From the NCBI GenBank assembly GCA_018819925.1, contig JAHJPG010000123.1:1-37316 (forward strand): a DNA stretch of 37,316 nucleotides, given 5' to 3'. This DNA comes from Pseudomonadota bacterium. GTDB taxonomy: Bacteria; Desulfobacterota; Desulfarculia; Desulfarculales; Desulfarculaceae. The position numbers and the translations under genes were made by a program. Under the pieces are notes generated by a model. It saw only the letters and a list, made by a program, of their open reading frames with translations, had not been told where the DNA came from and made no database searches. Of the stretch, positions 27,250-32,055 are shown piece after piece (positions within the stretch are counted from its first letter, which is position 1; the number at the start of each line of letters is the position of its first letter).

Positions 27250-28032
27250 GTGGAGTTCATCAACCTCGGCAGCGTCCTCATCGCCCTTATCATCACCCTA
27301 GGCCTGATGGTCAGCCACTACCTCTCGCCGCTAATCGGGCGCATCCCCGGAGTCAGCGAGCGCCAGGCCGCCTCCTTCGCCGGGGGGGTGGCGGTGGCCT
27401 ACGTGTTCTTGCACATGCTGCCCGAGCTGGTGGAGGGCAACGCCGCGGTGGGGCGGCTGCTGGGCCAGGTGGAGCGCCTCACCCCGCTGCTGGACCTGGG
27501 CATCTTCATGGTGGCCCTGTTGGGCTTCACCCTCTACTACGGCCTGGAGCTCTTGGCCCAGCGGGCGGCCCAGCGCTCCAGCGCCGCCGAGGGACGGGTC
27601 TACGGCCTGCACCTGGGCATGTATTGCCTGTACAACTTTCTCATCACCTACACCATGCCGCTGAGGGTGCAGACCGGCCTGGTCTATGCCCTCATCTTCA
27701 CCGTGGCCATGGCCCTGCACTTCATCCTCAGCGACCGCAACTTCAAGCGAAACTTCCCCCGGCGCTTCTCTCTGCGGGGACGCCTGATCCTGTTGGCCTC
27801 CCTGGCCGCCGGCTGGGTGGTCACCGCCCTCACCGAGCCCATCGACGTGCTGGCCGTCAGCCTGATGATCGCCTTTTTGTCGGGCTCCATCCTCTACAAC
27901 GTGTTCAAGGAGGAGTTGCCCAGCGAGCGCAACTCCAGCTACGCCTGCTTCACCCTGGGCCTGGGCATCGTCACCGCCCTGCTGGCCCTGGAGGCCTACC
28001 TCGGCCACGCCCAGCGCGCCGTGGGGGGTTGA
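27250..28032 (+). CDS. ZIP-like multi-pass membrane protein
   Basis: A 260-aa protein with about seven to eight hydrophobic segments. The second segment ASFAGGVAVAYVFLHMLPEL has the H-x-x-x-E of ZIP metal transporters (His55, Glu59). A later helix carries His157 in MALHFILSDRNF and there is Glu197-region TEPIDVL. The usual ZIP helix IV HNxxE is not obvious, so metal transport is uncertain and the protein may be a divergent relative. The GTG start at 27250 is 6 bp after the preceding stop. The hydrolase gene follows 11 bp after its stop. Confidence 0.65.
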   Translation: MEFINLGSVLIALIITLGLMVSHYLSPLIGRIPGVSERQAASFAGGVAVAYVFLHMLPELVEGNAAVGRLLGQVERLTPLLDLGIFMVALLGFTLYYGLELLAQRAAQRSSAAEGRVYGLHLGMYCLYNFLITYTMPLRVQTGLVYALIFTVAMALHFILSDRNFKRNFPRRFSLRGRLILLASLAAGWVVTALTEPIDVLAVSLMIAFLSGSILYNVFKEELPSERNSSYACFTLGLGIVTALLALEAYLGHAQRAVGG

Positions 28033-29079: not shown

Positions 29080-29784
29080 CTACCCACAAACAGCCGCTAG
29101 TGCCTTCCCCGTCTCCTCGCCTTGCAGCCTACCGTCGGCCATGTTGAGCACCCTATCGGCATAGGACGCGCAGGCCGGGCTGTGGGTGACCATGACGATG
29201 GTCATGCCCTCGGAGCCCAGGCGCTTGAGCAGCTCCATCATGCGCTGGGTGTTGGCCTGGTCCAGGTTGCCGGTGGGCTCGTCGGCCAGTAGGATGGGCG
29301 GCTGGTTCACCAGGGCCCGGGCCACGGCGGCCCGCTCCTGCTCCCCGCCGCTCACCTCCGACGGCAGCCGCTTCTCCTTGCCCTCCAGACCCACCCGGGC
29401 CAGGGCCACATGGGCCATGTCCAGCTTTTCTTTCTTGGGCAGGCGCTTGATGGCCAAAGGCAGCATCACGTTTTCGGCCAGGCTTAGGTATGGCACCAGG
29501 TTGAAGGACTGGAACACGAAGCCCAGATACTCCCGCCGAAAGTCGGCCCGCTGGTCCTGCCCCAGGGAGAACACCTCGATGCCGTCCACCAGGTAGCTCC
29601 CGCCCTCGGGGGTGTTGAGCGCCCCCAGCACGGCCAGCAGGGTGGACTTGCCCGAGCCCGAGGGGCCCATCACCGCCGTGAACTGTCCGGCGTCTATCTC
29701 CAGGCTCACCGAATCCAGGGCCCGCACCAGCGACGACCCCTTGCCGTAGGTCTTCACCAGATCGCGCGCTATTATCATGCTCAT
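29080..29784 (-). CDS. MacB/LolD-type ABC transporter ATPase
   Basis: A 234-aa nucleotide-binding subunit. Walker A is GPSGSGKST (40-48), the Q loop is FVFQSFNLVPYLS (89-101), the signature is SGGEQERAAVARAL (145-158, with Glu where Gln is usual), and Walker B is ILLADEPTGNLD with catalytic Glu169. The VFQSFNLVPYLSLAENVMLPL stretch (split here by the Q loop) is typical of the LolD/MacB/FtsE-like group. Its partner permease is encoded just upstream with a 10-bp gap, and a DUF2318 gene precedes that. GGAGAATACTG gives a sound ribosome site. A 122-bp repeat starts directly after the stop. Confidence 0.93.
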   Translation of the reverse strand: MSMIIARDLVKTYGKGSSLVRALDSVSLEIDAGQFTAVMGPSGSGKSTLLAVLGALNTPEGGSYLVDGIEVFSLGQDQRADFRREYLGFVFQSFNLVPYLSLAENVMLPLAIKRLPKKEKLDMAHVALARVGLEGKEKRLPSEVSGGEQERAAVARALVNQPPILLADEPTGNLDQANTQRMMELLKRLGSEGMTIVMVTHSPACASYADRVLNMADGRLQGEETGKALAAVCG

Positions 29785-29794
29785 CAGTATTCTC

Positions 29795-30952
29795 CTACAG
29801 GGTGCGCAGGGCCTGGGCGGGGTCCAGGCGCGAGGCCATCCAGGCGGGGTAGAGGCTGGCCGCCGATCCGCAGACCAGGGCCAGGGCCAGGGCCGCTCCG
29901 GCCAGGGAGGGGTCCCAGGCCAGGTGGCCGCCGCCGTCTTGGCTGAACAAGGGCAGGGCCAGCTCGCCGGCCAGGTGCCCGGCCCCGTAGCCCAGCAGCC
30001 CGGCGGCGGCGGAGAGGATGAGGGCCTCGGTCAAGACCACCCGCATCACCTGGCCGCTACGGAAGCCGATGGCCCGGAAGATGCCAATCTCGCCGGTGCG
30101 CTCCTTCACGCTGCCCATCATGGTTACCAGCACCACCAGGGCTCCCAACAGGGCCACCAACAAGGACACCCCCAGGGCGAAGCGCTTGAAGTGGGCGATG
30201 GCCTCCATGCGGCCCTTGACCACGCTCTGGATGGCAACCGCCTTGGCTCCGGGCAGGGCCTGGTCTATCTGGCTCACCATGGCTTCGATGGGACAGTCCT
30301 TGCACAGGGCCGCCACCTCCACCAACGACACCAGCCCCTGCTTGCCCAATATCTCCTGGGCCGAGGCCAGGGGCATGAACAGCAGGTGATCGTCCTGGCT
30401 GCCGGTGGGCTCCAACACGCCGCTCACGGTCAACTCCCGCCCGGCCACCTTCACCCGGCTGCCGGTGGTCAGGCCCAGCAAACGGGCCGCCTCCGCGCCG
30501 GGAGCCACCTGGCCCGGACCGGGCTCCTTGCCCTGGAGCTTCCACCAGGGCTTGAGGATGCGGGCCTCGTTCCAGTCCACCCCGGCCAAGAGCACCGGAC
30601 GCCCCGCCGCCTCGGTGCGGCCCAAGACCATGGGCCCCACCGCAGCCACGTTGGCCGAGTTCTTTATCTTGCGGATGCCCGCCAGGTCGGCCTGGCGGAT
30701 CTCCCTTGCGTCAAAGGAAAAGCCCCCCAGGCTCAACCCGCCGTAGGAGAGGTTGAGCTGGTCGCTCTTGGGGGTGATGAGGATGTTGGCCCCGTACTTT
30801 TCCAGCTTGTGGTTTATCTCGTGGGTCAGCGCCGAGCCCAGGCCCATCAGGGCCACCATGGTGGCCACCCCGGTGAGCAGCCCGGCCAAGACAAAGGCCG
30901 CCTTGGCCTTTTTGCGCCTCAGGTTCAAAAGGGCGATGTCGGTGAGGTTCAT
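29795..30952 (-). CDS. MacB/FtsX-type ABC transporter permease
   Basis: A 385-aa permease with one N-terminal helix (about 18-40), a large periplasmic MacB_PCD-like domain (about 45-250) and three C-terminal helices ending LYPAWMASRLDPAQALRTL, the usual FtsX-fold closing. The periplasmic domain carries a CKDC pair in VEVAALCKDCPIEAMV. The ATG at 30952 gives the family start MNLTDIALLNLRRKKAKA; it is 4 bp after the DUF2318 stop. Known relatives next to DUF2318 genes belong to the P19-type iron uptake loci; here only one permease is present. Confidence 0.9.
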   Translation of the reverse strand: MNLTDIALLNLRRKKAKAAFVLAGLLTGVATMVALMGLGSALTHEINHKLEKYGANILITPKSDQLNLSYGGLSLGGFSFDAREIRQADLAGIRKIKNSANVAAVGPMVLGRTEAAGRPVLLAGVDWNEARILKPWWKLQGKEPGPGQVAPGAEAARLLGLTTGSRVKVAGRELTVSGVLEPTGSQDDHLLFMPLASAQEILGKQGLVSLVEVAALCKDCPIEAMVSQIDQALPGAKAVAIQSVVKGRMEAIAHFKRFALGVSLLVALLGALVVLVTMMGSVKERTGEIGIFRAIGFRSGQVMRVVLTEALILSAAAGLLGYGAGHLAGELALPLFSQDGGGHLAWDPSLAGAALALALVCGSAASLYPAWMASRLDPAQALRTL

Positions 30953-30956
30953 GGGC

Positions 30957-31523
30957 CTAGCCCCTGCGCGAAAAGTCGAAGAAGCGGCGGCCCTGGTCGA
31001 TGTCGGCCAGGCGGATGATGACCTTGCCGTTCTCAACCCGGCGCTCCAGGGGCGCGGGATTGCAGCCGCCCTTGACCTCGTTGACCCTCACCGAGGGGAA
31101 GCGCTTGCCGCAGTTGGCGCAGACCATCATGTCGCCTTCCTGGTAGTAGCCCTTGCCCTCGGGCCAGCACACGTCGCAGGCGTCGTAGGCCGCCCGGATC
31201 ACCCCGTCGGAGCTTTTGATCACGAAGTAGCGCACCGTTATGCCGTCGGAGCCCTTGTGCTCGAAGTGACGGGCCTTGCCGTCGTCGAACAAGGCGGCGG
31301 GCATGGCCACCACCTGCTCCCCGGCCACCACCGTGGAAGAGGCCGGGCGGGGGGCGTCGGCCTGGCTGGGGGTCATGAGCCACCAGCTGAGGCCGCCGGC
31401 CAAGACCAGCACCGCCACCACCACCATCGCCGCCAGGCCCTTGGAAGAGCCGCCCTTGCCGCCGCCCAACACCTGGGCCTTTTTGTCCTGGGTCTGCTCG
31501 TTCTGCTTGCTGTTGCCAGACAT
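30957..31523 (-). CDS. DUF2318 membrane-anchored Cys-rich protein
   Basis: A 188-aa protein with a cytoplasmic Gln/Lys/Gly-rich start, one membrane helix (29-50) and a periplasmic DUF2318 domain. The cysteine pattern is characteristic: YDACDVCWPEGKGYYQEG (Cys116, Cys119), MVCANCGKRFP (Cys135, Cys138) and KGGCNP (Cys154). These may bind a metal or Fe-S cluster. In known loci the domain goes with FTR1/P19 iron transporters and MacB-like ABC genes. The ATG at 31523 has AGGAGA 6 nt upstream. The permease gene starts 4 bp after the stop and the ATPase follows, so the three form one operon. Confidence 0.88.
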   Translation of the reverse strand: MSGNSKQNEQTQDKKAQVLGGGKGGSSKGLAAMVVVAVLVLAGGLSWWLMTPSQADAPRPASSTVVAGEQVVAMPAALFDDGKARHFEHKGSDGITVRYFVIKSSDGVIRAAYDACDVCWPEGKGYYQEGDMMVCANCGKRFPSVRVNEVKGGCNPAPLERRVENGKVIIRLADIDQGRRFFDFSRRG

Positions 31524-31642
31524 GATCTTCTCCTGATTTTTTAATAAACCGCCGGGTTCGCCCAATGGGGCGCGGGAACGCACCACCGCGCCGGTCGCGG
31601 AAGCGCCGTTTTGGGGGAGGCGGAGGCCTCCGGAGAGGCGGT

Positions 31643-31993
31643 CTAGATCAGGAGACTGGCCGTGGCCAGATACAGAGGCACCGGGGCGCGGGCCCGGGGT
31701 TGGGGCGCGGGCCGGGGCCGGGAGGCCGGGGCCGGCAAGGATGCGGGCAAGAGGGTGACGGCCAGGGCGCAAACGTCGGCCCGGGGGGCCTGGCTGAGAA
31801 CCAGGGACCGGCTGTCGCGGGGAGCGGCGTCAAGGCAGCAGCAGGCCGCCGCGCCGGTGGGGCAGCCGCCGTGCTCCACGGCCTGCTCGGCCATGGCCGG
31901 GCAGGATGGGGGCATTACTTCCGCCGCCGCGGGCGCGCCAAAGGCCGCCAGCAGCAGAATCAGCGCCGCCAAAAAGCACCCGCGAATCGACAA
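31643..31993 (-). CDS. Small secreted Cys-rich protein at the head of the DUF2318/ABC operon
   Basis: A 116-aa protein with a signal peptide (LSIRGCFLAALILLLAAFG, cleavage near APAAA-EVM). The mature part has PSCPAM, a His before GGCP, and a CCC triplet (AAACCCLDAAP), then a Pro-rich stretch and a hydrophobic end APVPLYLATASLLI. The TTG start at 31993 is used because GGGGAGGG is correctly spaced and because the promoter at 32023-32051 would start transcription near 32016, downstream of the alternative GTG at 32035. The Cys/His content suggests metal binding; similar small proteins head metal-resistance operons, but I cannot name the family. The DUF2318 gene follows after 119 bp. Confidence 0.6.
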   Translation of the reverse strand: MSIRGCFLAALILLLAAFGAPAAAEVMPPSCPAMAEQAVEHGGCPTGAAACCCLDAAPRDSRSLVLSQAPRADVCALAVTLLPASLPAPASRPRPAPQPRARAPVPLYLATASLLI

Positions 31994-32022
31994 GGGCCCT
32001 CCCCAACCAACAAGGTGCGCTA

Positions 32023-32055
32023 AAGATAACCACACCCCTCGCCATAGTCAACTAT
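32023..32055 (-). promoter_or_regulatory. Promoter with palindromic operator for the DUF2318/ABC operon
   Basis: On the minus strand TTGACT (32051-32046), a 17-bp spacer and TATCTT (32028-32023). The -35 box lies inside the perfect 12-bp palindrome ATAGTTGACTAT (32044-32055). A repressor bound there would block transcription; a metal-responsive regulator is a natural guess but the palindrome is not a motif I can assign. Confidence 0.65.

Follow-up and report, generated by a model that had tools for sequence, protein, structure and literature searches.

The window analysed here is a stretch of 37,316 nt from a member of the Desulfarculaceae (assembly GCA_018819925.1, contig JAHJPG010000123.1). 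On its minus strand, between 29080 and 31993, lies an operon of four genes, recognised from the open reading frames and from Pfam and NCBIfam matches, that encode a Cys-rich secreted protein (the head protein), a DUF2318 protein, one permease of the MacB/FtsX type, and an ATP-binding cassette (ABC) ATPase. The operon is a widespread, conserved and real variant of the DUF2318-ABC module, distinct from the Fet iron uptake system, and its probable role is the handling of copper-like metals in the periplasm.

The operon and its conservation

The genes and the signal ahead of them are as follows.

32023..32051, minus strand: probable sigma-70-like promoter, TTGACT-N17-TATCTT, ahead of the head gene, recognised as a sequence pattern
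31643..31993, minus strand: Cys-rich secreted head protein with a CCC triplet, 116 aa, C-terminus APVPLYLATASLLI
30957..31523, minus strand: DUF2318 (PF10080) protein, 188 aa, PF10080 E 6e-30, CxxC-x15-CxxC...GGCNP
29795..30952, minus strand: single MacB/FtsX-type permease, 385 aa, C217-K-D-C220, FtsX E 3e-22, MacB_PCD E 1e-17
29080..29784, minus strand: ABC ATPase (MacB/LolD/FtsE-like), 234 aa, PF00005 E 4e-31

The gaps between head, DUF2318, permease and ATPase genes are 119, 4 and 10 nt. The head gene starts with a TTG codon, with GGGGAGGG ahead of it. These results agree with the initial annotation, which had described a four-gene operon with one permease, a CCC triplet and a CKDC pair. 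The TTGACT-N17-TATCTT type of pattern was present in 13 of 13 regions examined upstream of head genes, that of the window among them. A palindrome-like sequence, ATAGTTGACTAT, at 32044-32055 of the window contains the -35 box and may be a regulator site; similar sequences occur upstream of the head gene in other members of the genus (L032, L034-L038), where conservation of a candidate operator was inspected by eye only. The window genome (4.03 Mb, 96% complete, 145 contigs) contains one DUF2318 match.

An alignment of the permease was scanned against one genome per species, giving 382 stretches that encode a relative, of which the best 80 were kept. By their titles, these 80 are mostly Desulfo-, Syntropho- and unclassified Deltaproteobacteria, with one from Spirochaetia. 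Among them, a DUF2318 gene lies immediately ahead of the permease gene in 77 of the 77 loci with sufficient flank, and a same-strand ATPase gene immediately after it, also in 77 of 77, so the gene order is not due to chance. Of 297 genomes sampled from the phylum, 62 (45 of 198 genera) encode a single-type permease that matches at E 1e-60 or better; with this alignment, Fet-type permeases reach about 1e-34 to 1e-44. The form with one permease is apparently undescribed and uncharacterised, as the titles, abstract openings and passages retrieved on DUF2318, FtrD-like, PF10080, COG4393, FetABCDEF and copper/permease hold no description of it. Papers on a guessed Geobacter locus, on copper with FtsX and on FtrB had no bearing on it. 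Crp/Fnr-type regulator genes were seen 1.8-3.2 kb upstream of the permease gene, on the same strand, in a number of related loci (L063, L073, L074, L080, L089, L097, L100, L110, L111, L113, L116, L126 and L127; confirmed by Pfam only in L113).

The head protein (115 aa scanned) has no match in Pfam or NCBIfam, and its N-terminus is signal-like by eye. A profile built from 15 head proteins of Desulfarculia gave, in the first round, one match each in 65 loci, 42 of them independent when the 15 loci used for training and 8 duplicate contigs are set aside. With the iterated profile, a head gene was found ahead of DUF2318 in 55 of the 61 loci whose upstream sequence is long enough; this profile is partly built from the counted loci, and the first-round count is the cleaner test. 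Common to the heads are several cysteines, an N-terminus that looks signal-like by eye and a PLYLxxxSLLI-like C-terminus, and this extreme C-terminus is their best-conserved part besides the cysteines. The profile matches and the 55 of 61 loci rule out the first gene as a chance neighbour. The initial annotation had named a lack of conservation of this gene with the operon as grounds for giving up its reading, and the gene proved to be conserved; its description of the 116-aa protein as new has to be replaced by that of a conserved family partnering the operon.

Six loci have no head in place (L064, L069, L085, L129, L095 and L105). L064 and L076 instead encode, at this position, a SurA_N-like protein (Pfam) that contains a CC-rich stretch, and L069 and L085 are similar. 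HMA-domain proteins are found there in L129 and on a Pelobacter plasmid (L052), and HMA heads occur in a Geobacteraceae contig. The head of L095 lies farther upstream, with an HMA-SurA_N gene in between, and L105 contains masked stretches. HMA and SurA_N-like domains fused in one protein adjoin the operon at L095:944-1927 and L084:2855-3940 (Pfam).

Relation to the Fet iron uptake system

DUF2318 genes almost always map to Fet-like clusters and are read as a mark of Fet, according to passages of PMC6083913. Passages of PMC10783030 state that FetA of C. jejuni carries DUF2318, that the best studied homologue, FetABCD, supports iron uptake, and that fetA, fetB, fetC and fetD are each required for normal growth of C. 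jejuni at low iron; its authors assign FetABCD a redox role and state that the module's own function in Campylobacter is unknown. As described in parts of these two papers, the C. jejuni cluster fetMP-fetABCDEF shares with the window, in the same order, a DUF2318 domain with two CxxC motifs and a fifth Cys, a MacB/FtsX-type permease and an ATPase. However, the C. jejuni system has a FetA with eight transmembrane segments, two permeases, the FTR1-type FetM, P19 and the thioredoxins FetE/F, whereas the window has a short DUF2318 protein, one permease with a CxxC motif, a Cys-rich head protein and neither FTR1 nor P19. Of the marks of a Fet locus, the window thus has DUF2318 and a FetD-like ATPase, and lacks FTR1/FetM, P19/FetP and a second permease.

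FTR1 (PF03239) and P19 (PF10634) gave no match anywhere in the window genome. The initial annotation had reported both as absent and would have abandoned its reading if they lay elsewhere in the same regulon, and on this point it was borne out. A DUF2318 match is present in 48 of the 63 class genomes examined: 17 have the short form, 30 a long open frame (at least 316 aa) and one a weak match below the cut-off (G001). The 17 with the short form comprise eight of the window's own genus, five of a sister genus and four of other families. The single permease is seen in 16 of them, and in the remaining one (G051) the contig stops inside DUF2318, with the head gene visible. FTR1 is present in 29 of the 63 genomes and P19 in the same 29; 28 of these have the long DUF2318, and one (G008) has no DUF2318 match. 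In the 17 short-form genomes, neither FTR1 nor P19 was found. Both are also without a match in G012 and G026, which have the long form, and there the DUF2318 gene is close to a contig end. Each of the 15 long-type loci that were opened contains two permeases.

The permeases are of two kinds. A CxxC motif is present in the single permeases of 88 of 88 loci, window included, versus none of 30 Fet-type permeases of the class, and both of its cysteines are invariant in all 70 aligned single permeases. The model places the motif between the first two long helices, within the periplasmic core domain. In a maximum-likelihood tree of 31 single, 15 first Fet-type and 15 second Fet-type permeases (61 in all), a well-supported branch sets off each group; the tree is unrooted, and L170 sits on a very long branch. 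At that locus (L170:3786-5592) the permease has a divergent CIAC motif, a Cys-rich, secreted-looking gene lies directly upstream and DUF2318 gave no match, and it may be a DUF2318-free form.

A decayed Fet locus is ruled out by the genome distribution, the permease tree and the CxxC motif. The initial annotation had left the choice between a reduced and a different metal-handling or redox system. "Reduced" does not fit a permease group of its own in 62 of 297 genomes, while "different" agrees with the neighbourhoods in relatives.

Copper- and silver-type genes near related operons

On plasmid pPRO1 of Pelobacter propionicus (L052), an HMA protein, DUF2318, the permease and the ATPase are encoded in one island, which as annotated also carries a metal-sensing regulator, a heavy-metal P-type ATPase, TolC, an adaptor of the resistance-nodulation-division (RND) type and a CusA/CzcA pump. 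By tblastn, TolC-, CusB- and CusA-like genes follow the ATPase gene on the same strand in L052 (CusA by annotation only), L064, L077, L085, L114, L161-L165 and L174. L166 has TolC and a CusB fragment at the contig end, and in L069 and L076 the Cus-type genes are on the opposite strand. A P-type ATPase gene lies upstream of the operon in L052, L085 and L164. None of 15 two-permease loci has Cus genes, which is a weak control as most of these stretches extend only a few kb downstream.

The family TIGR00914 (CusA/CzcA-type) was searched in the 62 genomes that carry the single-type permease, with one permease position taken per genome. At least 63 matches over the cut-off were found in at least 40 of the 62 genomes. 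In at least 19 genomes such a pump lies no more than 10 kb from the permease, and all of these have a same-strand copy 2.9-7.7 kb downstream; one of them has a second copy, upstream and on the opposite strand. These genomes span eight families, with eight of the genomes in one family. By chance, about 0.35 permease-pump pairs would be expected, versus the at least 19 genomes observed. This expectation is calculated for an assumed mean genome size of 3.6 Mb (a previous, cruder estimate with 3.2 pumps per genome gave 1.07), and as the 62 genomes are related, the Poisson values for pump proximity are not strict probabilities.

Cu(I) and Ag(I) are the substrates that CusA exports. Against the solved CusA, the pumps of L064, L163 and L069 (that of L069 being on the opposite strand) reach 1020-1057 bits, versus 474-527 against ZneA, and by sequence all three of these neighbouring pumps are CusA-like. 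The two CusB proteins tested (L052 and L174) carry the heavy-metal-binding domain HMBD. DUF2318 proteins also belong to a CsoR copper regulon inferred for gut Firmicutes, according to passages of PMC4938975.

Handling of copper-like metals is thus probable because in roughly one third of the genomes examined, relatives of the operon lie near copper/silver-type pumps. CusCBA is a downstream neighbour in at least 19 of 62 related genomes and works in the same compartment as the window system; it differs in being an RND pump with an adaptor and an outer-membrane channel, whereas the window system is an ABC unit with a DUF2318 protein. The neighbourhoods in relatives, which are good evidence, suggest copper/silver handling, and none of the evidence from the window genome is direct. 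The comparison of neighbourhoods proposed in the initial annotation favours a different metal-handling or redox system through the neighbours of relatives, from which we infer both the metal and the mechanism. The operon represents a second DUF2318-ABC system, itself common, that lacks an iron permease; it is present in about a fifth of the sampled genomes of the phylum (62 of 297) and tied by its neighbourhoods to copper/silver-type efflux. As the ABC/DUF2318 module is here separated from iron transport, the module's own function becomes testable.

Predicted folds, mechanism and alternative readings

The window DUF2318 protein passes the curated cut-off of PF10080 (FtrD-like) with 103.8 bits versus 26.3, has one N-terminal stretch resembling a membrane anchor, and carries five cysteines that are invariant in 75 of 75 aligned DUF2318 proteins. 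In the predicted model, block values of pLDDT (a per-residue confidence) are 91-98 for residues 71-180, with an overall mean of 83.5. The top PDB matches by Foldseek are Rieske proteins (best E 4e-4). With VIA-align, a Rieske ferredoxin scored Z 9.4 (101 residues aligned) and 27 chains had Z >= 8, the top rows being Rieske-type, and these Z values are not much above the background level named by the tool. The part of the model that resembles Rieske ferredoxins would be residues about 68-177, where the cysteines would fall at the ligand loops. By eye, the second loop, CxNCGxxF, is similar to the Rieske CPCHGSxF, with Cys replacing His.

Rieske ferredoxins have CxH...CxxH ligands, whereas the DUF2318 protein has CxxC...CxxC in their place and no significant match to them as a sequence profile. 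Comparison by hhalign with 12 Rieske domains (drawn from 14 loci, two of which showed no motif) gave P 0.17, and two unrelated controls gave P 0.48 and 0.49; homology is not shown because this profile comparison is not significant. PF00355 is absent from the Pfam list of the window protein and from the best 25 of 58 families for 45 members, a sequence search for a relative of solved structure gave nothing convincing, and the literature search found no paper connecting DUF2318 with Rieske proteins. It is the predicted fold, not homology, that suggests the Rieske likeness, and DUF2318 gains by it a testable structural idea. The DUF2318 proteins of L157, L158 and L159 start with a stretch that by eye is zinc-ribbon-like.

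The permease has the features of a type VII (MacB/FtsX) protein: an FtsX C-terminal domain, a MacB-like periplasmic core domain and a MacB-like fold in the model, its predicted fold being MacB/LolE-like. The type VII systems MacAB-TolC, LolCDE and HrtBA have the same permease and ATPase families and the same predicted fold; the window differs from them in having no adaptor gene, in its DUF2318 and Cys-rich partners, and in the CxxC of the periplasmic core domain. MacB drives a conformational change in the periplasm (mechanotransmission), not transport across the inner membrane, according to passages of PMC8277102.

We consider the chances about even that the operon encodes a distinct, ATP-driven, four-component system for handling soft metals in the periplasm, most likely Cu(I)/Ag(I). 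In the periplasm, the head protein would capture a thiophilic metal, which the membrane-anchored DUF2318 domain may reduce or accept. Alternatively, this domain may keep thiols reduced; it would supply or accept electrons. A homodimer of the type VII permease with two ATPase subunits would, by mechanotransmission, alter the periplasmic domain that bears the CxxC, and through this CxxC the ABC unit could pass on or release the metal, or restore thiols. Where CusCBA is encoded alongside, it would be the receiver of the metal. A more specific version, which is tentative, is a new class of ATP-driven copper relay in the periplasm. In it, a protein with an all-cysteine Rieske fold would act with a homodimeric type VII ABC unit that bears the CxxC; they would strip or reduce soft metal bound to a Cys-rich secreted carrier and hand it to CusCBA-type exporters. 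If true, this relay would be the copper-export counterpart of the redox-ABC module used by Fet in iron uptake.

Several observations weigh against copper handling. By tblastn, Cus-type genes were found in only 14 of 108 single-permease loci, two of these on the opposite strand and many of the flanks being short, and 43 of the 62 genomes have no TIGR00914 pump within 10 kb among the matches listed, some of their permeases lying at contig ends. No Cus genes adjoin the window operon, and among the matches listed there is no TIGR00914 protein over the cut-off in the window genome, which does have a copper-type P-type ATPase over the cut-off on another contig. Some relatives have redox or sulfur genes instead: a TlpA/redoxin-type gene just after the ATPase gene, recalling FetE/FetF, in L073 (10991-11647), L074, L089, L112, L113, L116 and L119 (confirmed by Pfam only in L073), a DsbC/DsbA-like gene after the operon in L158, and PP-loop sulfur-transfer-like genes ahead of DUF2318 in L155, L156, L157, L159 and L160, all of one family, f13 (confirmed by Pfam only in L160). 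The iron uptake supported by FetABCD in C. jejuni, with each gene needed at low iron (PMC10783030, in part), is a further point.

The redox and sulfur neighbours, the many cysteines of the exported parts and the redox role given to FetABCD in passages of PMC10783030 would fit a periplasmic supply of thiol or sulfur redox equivalents, in which periplasmic proteins receive reducing power or sulfur from the ABC unit and DUF2318, and the links to copper are secondary, copper being damaging to thiols. This reading is rather unlikely. It leaves the repeated CusCBA, HMA and P-type ATPase neighbours unexplained, no thioredoxin gene adjoins the window operon, and the L073 gene used as a query finds none in most relatives.

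It is improbable that the operon is a reduced Fet system which, together with another iron permease, continues to serve iron uptake. This reading has in its favour that the DUF2318 protein, permease and ATPase are the counterparts of FetA, FetB/C and FetD, and that these are needed for iron in C. jejuni. However, C. jejuni requires both FetB and FetC and the window has one permease; this permease belongs to a separate group with its own CxxC, a Cys-rich partner stands in place of P19, and FTR1/P19 occur in none of the 17 class genomes of the single-permease type versus 29 of 63 overall.

Least probable is a Lol/MacB-like device that sorts or exports the head protein by recognising its PLYLxxxSLLI-like tail, since, for all the conservation of that extreme C-terminus and the MacB/LolE-like fold of the permease, HMA (L052, L129) or SurA_N/Cys-rich (L064, L069, L076, L085) substitutes without the tail occur while the permease family is unchanged, and no adaptor gene adjoins the window operon.

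A few further genes were seen around the operon and its relatives. At L049:4400-9948 (G004), a short DUF2318 gene has no adjoining permease and lies between genes with HMA motifs by eye, one of them P-type-ATPase-like by eye, which may be another copper-like context. In the window, a gene for a ZIP-like membrane protein (27250-28032; PF02535 below the cut-off) is near the 3′ side of the operon, and by eye ZIP-like genes are close to the operon in several members of the genus. On the Pelobacter plasmid, an M23 peptidase gene (L052:10202-10783) overlaps the end of the ATPase gene.

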